DNA from: Kiritimatiellia bacterium
Lineage (GTDB): Bacteria > Verrucomicrobiota > Kiritimatiellia > SLAD01
Reading direction: 5' to 3'
Assembly (NCBI GenBank): GCA_007136425.1
Contig: SLGY01000174.1
Location: 1-36,432 of the forward strand
Length of the DNA stretch: 36,432 nucleotides
In this document: one piece after another, positions 28,825-33,924 of the stretch
How the letters are laid out: every line of letters begins with the position of its first letter
Numbering within the stretch: position 1 is the first letter of the stretch
Position numbers and translations under genes: made by a program
The notes under the pieces: model-generated
Told to the model about the DNA's origin: nothing
Seen by the model: the letters and a program-made list of their open reading frames with translations, nothing else
Database searches by the model: none

Positions 28825-29111
28825 TTATACCAGTTGCTATATCTTTTCGGTACATTCTCTGGGCAACACGGCGAGGCTGTCTCAAAACTTCATAAGCAAG
28901 CCCGCCGACCGCAGAGGGTCGGCCTACAACCACCAGAACTTGTAGGTCGGGGCTCTGTCCCCGGCGTCTTCAAGTTGGTTTTGAGACAGCCTCCGGCGGT
29001 TGCCCCTCCAGTTAATGTGTCACAACACAATGCGTTGTAGCATCACTTTGGAGGGACGCGCTCCGTCGCGTCCTCTGAGAATAGACTGAAAAGTATCGGA
29101 AACTGGTATTA
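28825..29111. mobile_element. Outer imperfect inverted-repeat element ending in the aroK stop codon
   Basis: The ends at 28825-28863 and 29073-29111 are imperfect inverted repeats sharing ATACCAGTT, TTTTC and ATTCTC blocks in register (about 27 of 40 positions). The interior holds a complete second element (28873-28993). To its right is a palindromic segment with CCCTCCA...TGGAGGG and a GGACGCG/CGCGTCC hairpin (29053-29072). The right end supplies the TAA stop of aroK. ACTG occurs near both ends (28821-28824, 29114-29117), a weak candidate duplication. Apart from these repeats nothing is seen in the 389-base gap. Confidence 0.5.
28873..28993 (+). mobile_element. MITE-like element with GAGGCTGTCTCAAAAC terminal inverted repeats, nested
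   Basis: Perfect 16-base terminal inverted repeats (28873-28888, 28978-28993) bound a 121-base element, flanked directly on both sides by CGGC (28869-28872, 28994-28997), a likely 4-base target duplication. The core is GCCGACC/GGTCGGC hairpin, CCTACAA, loop, TTGTAGG, CGGGG/CCCCG hairpin. It lies inside the larger inverted-repeat element. No coding capacity, so it would need a transposase supplied elsewhere. Confidence 0.82.
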
Positions 29112-29630
29112 AAACTGCGTTTGTCCGAGATACAGCGCCACCACTTCCTGGGCCGTCTCGGCCGCCGTGTGATGGGACGTCTCGATCTGCAGCGGGATGG
29201 CCCGGTATAGTTCCTCGCGTTTGGCCAGCAATTCCTTGATGGCCTTGATCTTGTCGTCGTCGCCCTCCAACAGGGGGCGGTGCGTGTCTTTTGCCACCCG
29301 CTCCAGAATGGTGTCCGGATCGGCGTGCAGACAGATCACCACGCCGGTCTTGTTGAAATCCCGTATGTTGTCGGGATTCAGGACAACGCCGCCGCCCGTT
29401 CCGATAACCAGATCCTCGCGCGCGCTGAGTTCCTGAACCAGTTCGCGTTCAAGTGCGCGGAAATGCGATTCGCCTTCCTCCGCGAAGATCGCGCTGATCT
29501 TCTTGCCCGTCCGTTCCTCAATCACCGCATCCATGTCCACGAACTCGCGGTTCAATTGATTCGCCACCATGCGCCCCGTGGCGCTTTTCCCGGTTCCCAT
29601 GAAACCTACAAGAATAATATTCTTTGCCAT
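29109..29630 (-). CDS. aroK: Shikimate kinase
   Basis: 173 residues. It phosphorylates shikimate in the aromatic amino acid pathway. P-loop 'GFMGTGKSATGR' (about 9-20), shikimate-binding 'DMDAVIEERTGKKISAIFAEEGESHFRALE', and 'GTGGGVVLNP' with the substrate-contacting glycines; lid arginine in 'THRPLL'. The open frame extends upstream through the prepilin peptidase gene, but the family start is the ATG at 29630, with AGGAG overlapping the pilD stop. Its own TAA stop is contributed by the end of an inverted-repeat element. Last gene of the leuA-aroE-pilD-aroK operon. Confidence 0.95.
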   Translation of the reverse strand: MAKNIILVGFMGTGKSATGRMVANQLNREFVDMDAVIEERTGKKISAIFAEEGESHFRALERELVQELSAREDLVIGTGGGVVLNPDNIRDFNKTGVVICLHADPDTILERVAKDTHRPLLEGDDDKIKAIKELLAKREELYRAIPLQIETSHHTAAETAQEVVALYLGQTQF

Positions 29631-29632
29631 GT

Positions 29633-30454
29633 TCAGGCTCCTGACATCCATCGGATATACGCGTCCCACCATTCCATACCCCAGATTATCCAGATCACCG
29701 CGGCCAGTGCAAGATAAGGGCCGTAAGGGATCCGGCTCTGCCATTCGTGTCGCCCGCTCAAGATGAAGAGCAGGCCCACAAGCGACCCGGCCAGCGACGA
29801 AAGCATGATGGTGAACAAGACGCCCTGCCAGCCCATGAACGCGCCGATGGCCCCGAGCAGTTTCACGTCGCCGAAACCCATGGCGTCCTTCTTGAACGCG
29901 AACTTGCCGAGCACGGCCACTAGCCATAAGGCGCCCGCCCCGGTGAGCAGGCCGATGGCAGACGAAAGGAGTCCGTCAAGGGGCTGCGCCTCGCCGTGCA
30001 ACGCCGGTAGCGCGGTGCTGAGCGCGACCCCGGCCAGTATGCCGCCGAGACTGATGCGGTCCGGAATGATCATGTGTTCCAAATCCACGAACGTCGCCAC
30101 AATCAAACCGCCGGTCACCAGCATGTAGACGAGCGTAAGCGGCGACCACCCGTATTTGAGCCAGAGCGCGGCGAAGAGAAAGGCGGTCAACGCTTCTACA
30201 AAGGCATAGCGCGGGGAGATGGGGCCGCGACATTGACGACATCGGCCCCGTAAAAGGATATAGCTCAATATCGGGATGTTATCGTACCAGGCGATCATCG
30301 CGTCGCAATGCGGACAACGGGAACGCGGTCGGATCAGCGATTCGTCGCGAGGAATACGATGGATGCAGACGTTCAAGAAGCTGCCTACACACGCGCCGCC
30401 GAAAACGGCAAGCAGGGAGAAATACAAGTGCAACTCCGGGGGCAGGGCACTCAT
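29633..30454 (-). CDS. pilD: Prepilin peptidase / N-methyltransferase
   Basis: 273 residues. This membrane aspartyl protease cleaves and N-methylates type IV prepilins. The N-terminal methylase region has the zinc-binding pairs 'CPHC' and 'CRQC', and the catalytic aspartates are in 'FVDLEHMIIPD' and 'GFGDVKLLGA'. Eight or so hydrophobic helices. The start overlaps the aroE stop (ATGA), so it is embedded in an amino-acid biosynthesis operon. It would serve the pilus motor genes found about 20 kb away in the window. Confidence 0.93.
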   Translation of the reverse strand: MSALPPELHLYFSLLAVFGGACVGSFLNVCIHRIPRDESLIRPRSRCPHCDAMIAWYDNIPILSYILLRGRCRQCRGPISPRYAFVEALTAFLFAALWLKYGWSPLTLVYMLVTGGLIVATFVDLEHMIIPDRISLGGILAGVALSTALPALHGEAQPLDGLLSSAIGLLTGAGALWLVAVLGKFAFKKDAMGFGDVKLLGAIGAFMGWQGVLFTIMLSSLAGSLVGLLFILSGRHEWQSRIPYGPYLALAAVIWIIWGMEWWDAYIRWMSGA

Positions 30455-31311
30455 TTCCCGTATACCGCCTTCTCCAGCGCGGAGCGCATGCCGGTTATGG
30501 AAGGTTCTTTCCCCGTCCAAAGCGTGAACGCCCGCGCGCCCTGATGGAGCAGCATCCCGAGACCGTTGGCCGTGTCAGCGCCCGCCTCGCGCGCGGTGCG
30601 CAGGAAGGCGGTTTCGGGGTACATGTAGATGAGGTCAAATACCTTTTGGCCGGTACAAAACGCGTCCGGCCCCAACAGGGATGCGTCGGCCTCCTTCATG
30701 CCCACGGGTGTCGATTGAACCACCACGTTCGCCGTCCGGCACGCGTCGATTTGGTCGTCGGGAGAGGCGACATGAAGGGTTACCGCCGGATAGGCCGCGC
30801 GAATTTCCGTCGCTACCCGTTCTGCGCGCGATTCGTCCACATCCGATAATGCGATCCGATCCGCGCCGTGTTGCGCGCAGACCAACGCCACCGCACGGCC
30901 GGCGCCGCCGGTACCAAGCACAAAGACGGATTCCCCCGCTATGGAGGGGCCGAAAGATTCCTCCATGGCCTTGAGAAAACCGAATCCGTCGGTGTTGTGC
31001 CCGACCAGACCGTCGTCTGCAAACACCACGGTGTTTACCGCGCCGAGCAGACGGGCGGACGCGTCCAGTGACGGCAGCTCGGAGCAGGCCACTTCCTTGA
31101 GCGGTACGGTCAGATTTACCCCCTGAAAACCCATATCCCGCATCGCGGAAAGGACGGGCATCAATCGGTCCGGATGCACGTCAAACGCCAGATAAATCGC
31201 GTCAAGCCCCAACGCTTCAAACGACGCGTTGTGCATCACCGGCGACAGCGAATGTCCGATCGGATGGCCGAGCACCGCAAAGGGTTTCGTATGTCCGCTC
31301 ACGCTATGCAT
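30451..31311 (-). CDS. aroE: Shikimate dehydrogenase
   Basis: 286 residues. It reduces 3-dehydroshikimate to shikimate with NADPH, one step before aroK. Substrate-binding 'HPIGHSLSPVMHN' (about 16-28), catalytic lysine in 'NLTVPLKE', the 'LGAVNTVV' segment, nucleotide-binding 'GTGGAGRAV' near residue 130, and 'GLGMLLHQGARAF' near the end. AAGGA lies 9 bases before the ATG. It follows leuA by 37 bases on the same strand and overlaps pilD. Confidence 0.95.
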   Translation of the reverse strand: MHSVSGHTKPFAVLGHPIGHSLSPVMHNASFEALGLDAIYLAFDVHPDRLMPVLSAMRDMGFQGVNLTVPLKEVACSELPSLDASARLLGAVNTVVFADDGLVGHNTDGFGFLKAMEESFGPSIAGESVFVLGTGGAGRAVALVCAQHGADRIALSDVDESRAERVATEIRAAYPAVTLHVASPDDQIDACRTANVVVQSTPVGMKEADASLLGPDAFCTGQKVFDLIYMYPETAFLRTAREAGADTANGLGMLLHQGARAFTLWTGKEPSITGMRSALEKAVYGK

Positions 31312-31348: not shown

Positions 31349-32932
31349 CTATTTTTTGGCGGGGGCCTTTTTCTTTCGCGTCCGGGTCTTCTGCGGCGAC
31401 GGCGTCATGCCCTGATCCGCCAGATGCCGATTAATACAATTCAAGTAGGCCTTCGCAGCGGCCTCTACAATGTCCGTACTGGACGCTTTCCCGTTGACCA
31501 CATGATCGCCGAAATCGACGCGCACACTGACTTCTCCCATTGCGTCCTGGCCTTTCGTGATGGCCTGCAAGGTGAAATCCAGCAGCCGCCCCCGCATGGA
31601 GCAGATGCGGTCGATGGTTTTCAAGGCCGCGTCGACGGGGCCGTCCCCGCAAGCAGCGTCCTGAAAGACTTCCTCATTGCGTTGCAGCCGCACGGTGGCG
31701 GTCGGCACGGTTTCCGAGCCGGTGGACACGTGCAGATATTGTAACGTGTAAATCGGCGGCGCTTCCGTCATCTGTTGCTGAATCAAAGCGACCAGGTCGT
31801 CGTCATAGATCGTCTTCTTCTTATCCGCAAGGGCGATGAAGGAATCGTAGGCCTTGGACAGTTCCTCGGGATTCAGCCGGAAGCCCAGCTTATGCAGGTG
31901 ATTCGAAAAAGCATGATGTCCCGAATGTTTTCCCAGCACCAATTCCGTTCCGGAAATCCCGACATCTTCCGGCTGCATGATCTCGTAGGTGGTCCGCTCC
32001 TTCAGCATGCCGTCCTGATGGATGCCGGATTCGTGTGCAAACGCGTTAGCGCCCACAATTGCCTTGTTCCGTTGCACGACCATACCGGTCAATTGACTGA
32101 CCAGCCGGCTGGCCCGGAAGATTTCCCGGGTCTTGATGCCTGTGGACAAGGCATAGAAATCGCGCCGGGTACGCATGGCCATGACCACTTCTTCCAAAGA
32201 ACAGTTGCCGGCCCGTTCGCCCAGACCGTTGATCGTGCATTCGATGCCCCGGGCCCCGTTCTTGACCGCCGCCAGCGAATTGGCGACCGCCAAACCCAGA
32301 TCATTGTGGCAATGCACGTGAACGGTCACGTCATCAATGCCTTCCACGTGTTCCTGCAAATAGCCGATCAAGGCGCCGAATTCATCGGGTACGGCATAAC
32401 CGACGGTGTCCGGAATGTTGATCGTTGTGGCGCCCTCGGCGATGGCGGCGCGGCAGACTTCCGCCAGAAACTCCGGCTCGGTGCGGGAGGCGTCCTCCGG
32501 GCTGAATTGCACATCGTCCACATAGTGCTTAGCCATTCGGACGCCGGCGGCGGCCTGTTTGACAATTTCTTCCTTCGCTTTGCGTAACTTGTATTGACGA
32601 TGAATCGCCGACGTGGCCAGAAACACGTGAATACGGCCGCGCTCCCCGGCGGGCTCGACGGATTCGGCGGCGCGCACGATGTCTTTCTCCAGGCAGCGTG
32701 CCAGTCCCGCGATAATCGGACCGCGCACCTCTTCGGCGACGGCGCGTACGGCTTCAAAATCGCCGGGCGACGCAATTGGAAAGCCCGCCTCGATAATGTC
32801 CACCTTTAAACGCGCCAATTGCCGCGCCACTTCCAGCTTTTCACGCAACCCCATGCTCGCGCCGGGACATTGTTCGCCGTCGCGCAGGGTCGTGTCGAAG
32901 ATCACTACTCGGTTTTTCGGATTCTTTTTCAT
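31349..32932 (-). CDS. leuA: 2-isopropylmalate synthase
   Basis: 527 residues. It condenses acetyl-CoA and 2-ketoisovalerate in the first committed step of leucine synthesis. The catalytic TIM barrel begins '[19 protein letters not shown]', has '[21 protein letters not shown]' with the metal-binding HxH region and '[17 protein letters not shown]'. The C-terminal regulatory domain (about 390-505) is present, so leucine feedback is expected; a Lys/Arg-rich tail closes the protein. The open frame runs up into the terminator hairpin, but the family start is the ATG at 32932. It is preceded by a putative attenuator. Confidence 0.96.
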
Positions 32933-32983: not shown

Positions 32984-33017
32984 ATAATAAAAAACCCATC
33001 GCACACTGCGATGGGTT
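32984..33017 (-). terminator. Intrinsic terminator upstream of leuA (attenuator)
   Basis: On the minus strand AACCCATCGCA (33017-33007), a 3-base loop, TGCGATGGGTT (33003-32993), then a run of T's. The 11-bp perfect stem with T-tract lies 60 bases before the leuA start and after its promoter, so full-length leuA mRNA requires read-through. Confidence 0.9.
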
Positions 33018-33071
33018 AGCCGAAACCGGGTTTGAGGGAGCGTTAGATGAGATGACTCCCGGCCATCGCAG
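33006..33071 (-). promoter_or_regulatory. Antiterminator pairing for leuA
   Basis: The minus-strand segment CTGCGATGG at 33071-33063 is perfectly complementary to CCATCGCAG at 33014-33006, which makes up most of the terminator's 5' arm. Pairing the two would prevent terminator formation. A competing upstream pairing is possible between CTCCGGC and GCCGGGAG around the Leu codons (one bulged base). This is the arrangement of a translation-controlled attenuator. The pairing is seen; the mechanism is inferred. Confidence 0.7.
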
Positions 33072-33162
33072 GGCGCAAAACGCCGTCTAGCCGGAGCGCT
33101 AGCGCCCCGGCGCCGCTAAGGCCGAGAGGGTTGGTTCCTGTCATGGATCGTCTCATCTTCAT
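33043..33162 (-). CDS. Putative Leu-rich leader peptide of the leuA operon
   Basis: A 39-residue frame between the promoter and the terminator, ending TAA at 33043-33045. It has seven Leu codons, five of them in the stretch 'ALALRLDGVL' at residues 20-29 (bases about 33074-33105), immediately upstream of the antiterminator segment. In-frame ATGs at 33162, 33156 and 33144 are candidate starts. The first lies almost at the predicted transcription start and no strong ribosome binding site is seen, so the 33-residue form from 33144 is also possible. Translation is not proven. Confidence 0.55.
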   Translation of the reverse strand: MKMRRSMTGTNPLGLSGAGALALRLDGVLRPAMAGSHLI

Positions 33163-33169
33163 GTCGTGC

Positions 33170-33198
33170 ACCATATTGTGCGGCGCCGTCGTTGTCAA
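33170..33198 (-). promoter_or_regulatory. Promoter of the leuA operon
   Basis: On the minus strand a consensus TTGACA (33193-33198), a 17-base spacer and TATGGT (33170-33175). It lies just after the secreted-protein gene ends at 33223 and gives a start near 33162-33164, with a leader of about 230 nt before leuA. Confidence 0.65.
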
Positions 33199-33222: not shown

Positions 33223-33771
33223 TCAGCGTCGGGTGTCGCGGCGACGGTCCTGACTCCGCTCGCCCCCGCGTTGTGCATCGCCGCGCCGGTCACCGCGCCC
33301 GCCAGGGCGCAGTTCGCGTTGTTGACGCCGATCGCCCCGTTGTCGTGACCAAAACGGGCTCAAGTCATCCGCCCGTACCTCCAGGGTTTCTTCCCCGAAC
33401 GTGATTTCCTTGGCCACATAATGATCCTCCTCCAACAGATCCGTCCGAAAGGCCGTGACCTCGATGGGGCGTCCGGTTTCGAGCTTGTCCACGAAGGGCT
33501 TTACTGCGTCCGCAGAACCGACGTGCAGGTTGATCATCCGTCCGTCTTCCTTCTCGATGAACAAATGTGTGCCCACATAGGCGCGCCCGGTCGTTCGCGG
33601 ACAGGGACCCGTTTCAATACGGTCCAACGTGCCCTCGATCCGTACCATATCAGGCTGAACACCTTGTCGCGCCAGCCCTTCCGTTTCGCCGCGACCGCGT
33701 TGTCCGTAGGTCGCCCCTGCCACCAACAGGGTAAGTGCTATGATCGTCGTGCTTTTGATGAACGTCTTCAT
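33223..33771 (-). CDS. Small secreted protein with Arg/Gly-rich tail, unknown function
   Basis: 182 residues from an ATG with GGAAGGAG upstream. A signal peptide (1-24, 'STTIIALTLLVAGATYG') is followed by a compact beta-rich domain (about 40-135) with alternating charged and hydrophobic residues ('MVRIEGTLDRIETGP', 'GTHLFIEKEDGRMINLHVG', 'GRPIEVTAFRT'). The tail (about 140-182) is very rich in Arg, Gly, Gln and Asp. The domain looks OB-fold-like, but I do not recognise the family. The tail might bind polyanions. It lies between xseB and the leuA promoter. Confidence 0.7.
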   Translation of the reverse strand: MKTFIKSTTIIALTLLVAGATYGQRGRGETEGLARQGVQPDMVRIEGTLDRIETGPCPRTTGRAYVGTHLFIEKEDGRMINLHVGSADAVKPFVDKLETGRPIEVTAFRTDLLEEDHYVAKEITFGEETLEVRADDLSPFWSRQRGDRRQQRELRPGGRGDRRGDAQRGGERSQDRRRDTRR

Positions 33772-33924
33772 GATGTGCTCCTTCCTTTCTTTGCTGGTTC
33801 GTCTCTCGCCCCGTATAACGAACCAGGCCGGCCGATCGTGCACGCAACCTCAAGAATCATGGTTTCCCCGATGGGATGCATCCGTGCCCGCAGACTGCGG
33901 TTCCCTCTTTGGTTTTTTGCCCGC

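Follow-up and report, generated by a model that had tools for sequence, protein, structure and literature searches.

The leuA operon in the window, the 36,432-nucleotide stretch analyzed here (contig SLGY01000174.1 of assembly GCA_007136425.1), is very probably controlled by a ribosome-mediated leucine attenuator located in the region preceding leuA. The structural genes follow a promoter, a short open reading frame and an intrinsic terminator, arranged in this order; the frame is rich in codons for leucine, the amino acid of an operon whose leuA is identified; a mutually exclusive antiterminator and terminator are conserved by covariation; and, in simulation, a stall at the control codons frees the antiterminator, while completion of the frame does not. 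In every respect that can be tested on sequence, the leader is what a ribosome-mediated leucine attenuator should be. The evidence consists of all the parts themselves, the conservation of the frame, the enrichment of leucine codons and of rare ones among them, covariation, and a fixed geometry. These features point to translation of the frame, stalling within it and a response to leucine.

The leader and the genes that follow it

The window comes from a soda-lake Kiritimatiellae bacterium with a genome assembled as 226 contigs totalling 2.6 Mb. Its named relatives are MAGs of Kiritimatiellae recovered from the sediment of soda lakes (CSSed series); leuA of the closest relative is 88% identical. 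The leader block occupies the minus strand between a gene on that strand, which ends at 33223, and leuA (32932–31349). The TTGACA-17-TATGGT promoter, the leucine-rich short frame and the 11-bp terminator that the first-pass annotation had placed before leuA were all found, on the minus strand (Table 1). The frame, from the ATG at 33162 to the TAA at 33043, encodes the peptide MKMRRSMTGTNPLGLSGAGALALRLDGVLRPAMAGSHLI. The terminator reads AACCCATCGCA-GTG-TGCGATGGGTT (33017–32993), followed by TTTTATTATT. The segment CTGCGATGG (33071–33063) is the exact reverse complement of CCATCGCAG (33013–33005), within the 5' arm of the terminator and the edge of its loop, and the pairing of segment 3 with segment 2 runs through these positions. 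The perfect 9-nt complementarity described previously is thus confirmed, but the arm had been placed one base off, at 33006–33014. In the window, a complementarity of this length has a shuffle p of ~0.01.

Table 1. Features of the leader region and of the leuA gene cluster in the window.
Feature	Position	Strand	Remarks
Upstream gene	33223–33777	−	Same strand as leader and leuA
−35 element TTGACA	33193–33198	−	Kept in relatives
−10 element TATGGT	33170–33175	−	17-nt spacer from TTGACA; kept in relatives
Predicted transcription start (~33163) and leader ATG (33162–33160)	33160–33163	−	Leader mRNA predicted leaderless
Leader peptide frame, 39 codons + TAA	33043–33162	−	7 Leu codons: CTC CTT CTA CTC CTA TTG CTC
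Putative degenerate segment 1, CCATGAC	33140–33146	−	Relatives have CCATCGC at the same position (nt 17–23 of the frame)
Control region, Leu codons 13, 15, 21, 23, 25 and 29	33076–33126	−	Stall simulation
Segment 2, antiterminator strand CTGCGATGG	33063–33071	−	Within the frame, close to its end
UCUCAUCU, 3' strand of a long closing stem with AGAUGAGA (33158–33151)	33045–33052	−	Predicted fold only
Intrinsic terminator, 11 bp	32993–33017	−	Segment 3, 33017–33007; segment 4, 33003–32993; T-rich 32992–32984 next
leuA, 2-isopropylmalate synthase (regulated gene)	31349–32932	−	NF002086 and TIGR00973 above cut-off
aroE, shikimate dehydrogenase	30451–31311	−	37 nt 3' of leuA
pilD-like prepilin peptidase	29633–30454	−	Assignment of the first-pass annotation
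aroK, shikimate kinase	29109–29630	−	

The order leuA-aroE-pilD-aroK, with small gaps, is kept in most members of the family and in several other families. Between these genes in the window, neither a promoter nor a convincing same-strand terminator was found, and a leuA-aroE-pilD-aroK operon is plausible. The product of the pilD-like gene has no NCBIfam match at E <= 0.001. With its 37-nt gap and conserved order, such an operon would, as suggested earlier, couple shikimate and prepilin genes to leucine supply. However, several families carry the leader without aroE, pilD or aroK (no match to these genes in the available stretch next to the leuA genes of L046, L047, L048, L050, L051 and L054), and the coupling therefore looks like a by-product of gene order; in the window, the three genes probably ride along.

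Recurrence, predicted leaderless starts and leucine codons

We collected 145 distinct leuA upstream regions, which were scanned strictly for a promoter, a start codon 5–12 nt after the −10 element, a frame of 14–60 codons with at least two leucine codons, and a terminator 15–45 nt past the stop codon. The complete architecture is present in 52 of the 145 regions and in none of 2,900 dinucleotide-shuffled or 145 reverse-complemented controls; since no shuffled region carries all of it, the architecture is not a product of chance. Of the 92 species whose regions were assigned to families of the class, 46 are positive by the strict scan and 53 when visual calls are added; the class is unevenly sampled, and its species, being related, do not count as independent cases. 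The leader was found in 17 of 32 families of the class, family tallies that include the visual additions.

Within the window's family, the same block is present in three of the six other members with a leuA upstream region, each time with a leader of 39 codons and a terminator before leuA: G002 (L004, MNYGPSIATGNLLGLSPAGASALRLEAALRLAMGGRPLI), G007 (L014, MINEWTIAAYVLPGLLVLGTLVLRLTGAACAAVVVRARR) and G010 (L015, MINEWTIAVFVLPGLLLLWELGLRLLCAAHAAVVVGNRL). The block is not found upstream of leuA in G005, G006 and G008. Relatives that share it differ in the sequence upstream of the promoter. The hairpin could in principle be no more than the terminator of the upstream gene, with the frame arising by chance, and it does lie downstream of that gene on the same strand. 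However, a promoter separates the two, the promoter-frame-terminator block recurs in relatives next to different upstream sequence, and none of the shuffled sequences reproduces it; we rejected this explanation and regard it as extremely improbable.

The frame length of 39 codons is kept in several families, which would also suit a leader whose main product is a trans-acting small protein, the role suggested for peTrpL of Sinorhizobium; terminated leader RNAs would then be leaderless small mRNAs, like rnTrpL (PMC7298713). Yet the peptide sequence is poorly conserved, except for leucine and the residues encoded by the pairing segments (AMG, AAVG, AGDG). A trans-acting product was rejected on this ground and is very improbable. 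Leaders of family f26 (L050–L058, L072) share a common peptide, LALRGDTRATAGDGCC, and a hairpin, CGACACCCGT/ACGGGTGTTGCG, and represent a distinct, strongly conserved form.

Other biosynthetic genes and other taxa were also inspected. In the window's family, the regions preceding ilvB, trpE and hisG showed no such leader. Upstream of hisG in this family (L248–L257), a conserved CTATAGACG...TTGTCTAYTATACGCCG block overlaps the presumed hisG promoter; it holds the inverted repeat TATAGAC/GTCTATA and looks like an operator. In G005, a genome without the leuA attenuator, several copies of the palindrome TTTTCCATTCAATGGAAA are located upstream of leuA (L011) and ilvB (L208), possibly a repressor site that replaced the attenuator. 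From families of Verrucomicrobiota outside the class, 13 leuA upstream regions were scanned, and no leader was detected. One region from such a family (L294) has a leucine-rich frame after a weak promoter, without a clear terminator. Leucine-rich short frames just past a promoter and before leuA, e.g. MRSMLLTTLLILGLSGACAEGVVKPV, were also seen in L070 (labelled Planctomycetota) and in L088 and L089 (Proteobacteria).

The start codons of the leaders fall within about the first five nucleotides of the predicted transcript (+1 to +5), a conserved feature; the ATG in the window is 7 nt after the −10 element, i.e. at about +2. Over 62 promoters, counts of ATG upstream of leuA are near zero at offsets 0–5 after the −10 element, with a sharp onset at 6 (13, 10, 6, 7, 5 and 3 at offsets 6–11, compared to about 0.1–0.6 per offset in shuffled sequences). 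Offset 6 corresponds to +1, since the −10 hexamer spans −12 to −7. This spacing predicts leaderless initiation of the leaders. Leaderless leader peptides are known from Corynebacterium glutamicum ilvB (PMC11857589) and Sinorhizobium meliloti trpL (PMC7298713). In G008 (L012), where the attenuator is absent, the ATG of leuA itself follows a TTGACA-17-TAAAGT promoter by 7 nt, and leuA appears to be leaderless. In the whole genome to which the window belongs (G000), 15 exact TTGACA/TANNNT promoters have an ATG at leaderless spacing versus 7 at 16–19 nt, with 0 for the reversed pattern; this suggestive count indicates that leaderless starts may be common there.

Leucine accounts for 20.6% of the codons in the leader frame, compared to 6.6% and 3.9% when the leaders are read in the two alternative frames. 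The choice of leucine codons is also conserved, with the rare CTT, CTA and CTC used rather than CTG. In the leaders of 27 genomes with a full leuA, the counts are CTT 50, CTC 35, CTG 32, TTG 29, CTA 14 and TTA 1, while leuA of the same genomes, which may itself be codon-biased, predicts CTT 2.7, CTC 22.8, CTG 104.5, TTG 27.6, CTA 0.6 and TTA 2.7. The window leader has CTC 3, CTA 2, CTT 1, TTG 1 and CTG 0, and its leuA has CTG 22, TTG 13, TTA 3 and CTT 1; six of seven leucine codons being CTC, CTT or CTA has p=0.002 against the genes of the window. By analogy, this bias fits the logic of the Salmonella leu leader, in which replacement of CUA by CUG is reported to have lowered sensitivity (Carter 1986, as cited in PMC1183508).

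Pairing segments and simulated stalling

In four relatives (L004, L037, L014 and L015), segment 1, CCATCGC (nt 17–23 of the frame), pairs with segment 2 (nt 94–101) in the predicted fold, and the 5' and 3' arms of the terminator constitute segments 3 and 4. The predicted anti-antiterminator of the window differs from theirs. Segment 1 appears to have decayed to CCATGAC, and the AGAUGAGA/UCUCAUCU stem that closes the predicted fold may replace its pairing.

Segments 2, 3 and 4 covary (CCCATC/CCCACC/CCCGCC), with sets such as GCGATGGG/CCCATCGC/GCGATGGG, GCGGTGGG/CCCACCGC/GCGGTGGG, GGCGGGC/GCCCGCC/GGCGGGC and others. For 41 of 48 leaders, the complementarity of the leader to its own arm is higher than to arms taken from other classes (17.4 vs. 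14.1, p=1e-7, a value that overstates independence because the species are related). In only 13 of 52 leaders is the complementarity individually distinct from that of shuffled sequence at p<=0.05; the signal of a perfect match in a single leader is weak in short-frame leaders, as segment 2 lies past the stop codon or the match is short. An alignment of leuA upstream regions, with a search for conserved leucine codons and covarying antiterminator/terminator pairing, had been suggested in the first-pass annotation as the way to check its proposal, and the outcome of this comparison is positive.

The position of segment 2 is also constrained. In 24 of 48 leaders it ends 16–21 nt ahead of the stop codon's first base, and exactly at −17 in 13 of these 48; in 40 shuffles, 3.7 leaders on average, and never more than 8, had it in the 16–21 nt position. 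In one leader group, segment 2 spans the stop codon (position 0); in the group with 18 codons, the best match is 8–10 nt past the stop, and the pairing is short and uncertain. Given the general size of the ribosome footprint, −17 would correspond to the 5' edge of a ribosome on the stop codon.

Stalling was simulated with segment 4 not yet made. In the window, a stall at Leu codons 13–25 sequesters segment 3 with a probability of 0.84–0.99, and 2:3 pairing is 0.77–0.99 with the A site on codons 9–28 (two footprint settings). Codon 29 is borderline (0.25–0.77), and pairing is about 0 from codon 31 onward. Without a ribosome, or with the ribosome at the stop codon, it is 0.00. The order of the parts suits ribosome-stall attenuation, as proposed earlier, and stalls do free the 9-nt segment in the simulation. 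Once segment 4 is present, the terminator usually beats 2:3 pairing thermodynamically; control must therefore be kinetic, as it is in other attenuators. Averaged over 48 leaders, segment 3 is paired at 0.70 when the stall is at a leucine codon, compared to 0.62 at other codons, 0.46 with no ribosome and 0.30 with the ribosome at the stop (leucine stalls vs. stop, p=7e-14). Only 17 of 48 leaders exceed 0.5 for leucine stalls and also stay below 0.3 at the stop, so that the model gives a clear picture for some leaders and a blurred one for others.

The strong fold of the leader (z=−4.3) is also what would be expected if a riboswitch, a T-box or a protein-bound leader sensed leucine, tRNA or a protein directly, with the frame being incidental. 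However, Rfam covariance models (T-box, SAM and other riboswitches) gave no match to the leader, in agreement with the earlier remark that it resembles neither a T-box nor a SAM leader, and none of these mechanisms needs a conserved frame, rare leucine codons or a geometry tied to the stop codon. Direct sensing was rejected on these grounds and is very unlikely.

In the ribosome-mediated mechanism that we favor, a sigma-70-type promoter would start an RNA whose first codon is, or nearly is, the leader AUG, and a ribosome would track RNA polymerase through the frame. If charged tRNA-Leu is scarce, the ribosome would stall at the rare leucine codons (codons 13–25), leaving segment 2 (33071–33063) free to pair with segment 3 while segment 4 has yet to be transcribed; this pairing would block the terminator and allow leuA-aroE-pilD-aroK to be transcribed. 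If leucine is ample, the ribosome would reach the stop codon and sit between segments 2 and 3, the end of segment 2, 16–21 nt before the stop, being at about the 5' edge of the terminating ribosome; alternatively, segment 2 might pair back with upstream sequence. In either case, segments 3 and 4 would form the terminator and transcription would stop.

Relation to known attenuators and significance for the class

The putative attenuator is similar to the enterobacterial leuL system of the Salmonella and Escherichia coli leuABCD operons: both have a leucine-rich peptide, rare leucine codons (work cited in PMC1183508), exclusive antiterminator and terminator structures, and leuA downstream. It differs from leuL in its predicted leaderless start, in a segment 2 that lies within the frame and keeps a set spacing from the stop codon, in its unrelated sequence, and in its operon, leuA-aroE-pilD-aroK. 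The actinobacterial LEU element likewise has a frame with leucine codons upstream of leuA; however, it is a pseudoknot whose base stem pairs the leucine codons with the leuA Shine-Dalgarno box, with no obvious terminator (PMC1262725), whereas a strong intrinsic terminator lies between the frame and leuA here, ~60 nt before the gene. C. glutamicum ilvB (PMC11857589) and S. meliloti trpL (PMC7298713) are comparable in having a leader AUG that coincides with the transcription start or is one nucleotide away from it, with the attenuator next, but belong to other operons and phyla and respond to other control amino acids.

Attenuators of this kind had been called poorly described outside Proteobacteria and Actinobacteria, which is only partly right, since a leucine-rich attenuator has been described for the ilv-leu operon of the Firmicute Staphylococcus aureus (PMC5794164). 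That system shares leucine-dependent attenuation of a branched-chain operon, but is located upstream of ilvD and has no visible sequence relation to the leader studied here. For Verrucomicrobiota, Kiritimatiellota, Lentisphaerae and Planctomycetes, the literature searched, in which subscription journals are mostly not included, describes no such attenuator.

Ribosome-stalling attenuation is known from few phyla and would now extend to leuA in a class of Kiritimatiellota. The presence of the leader in 17 of the 32 sampled families suggests that attenuation is a probable mode of control of leucine synthesis in this largely uncultured class. The comparative set, with its conserved geometry, rare leucine codons and predicted leaderless starts, allows the mechanism to be read without a cultured host, and the leaders point to widespread leaderless initiation in the class. 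We lean slightly towards the view that leuA was already preceded by a leaderless leucine attenuator in the ancestor of Kiritimatiellia. At least three layouts would have arisen from it since, with segment 2 ~17 nt before the stop codon, across it or just past it, and their spacings would serve as a ruler of the footprint of the terminating ribosome. If so, the leaders would represent a single switch in dozens of natural versions, within a class that is almost entirely uncultured.
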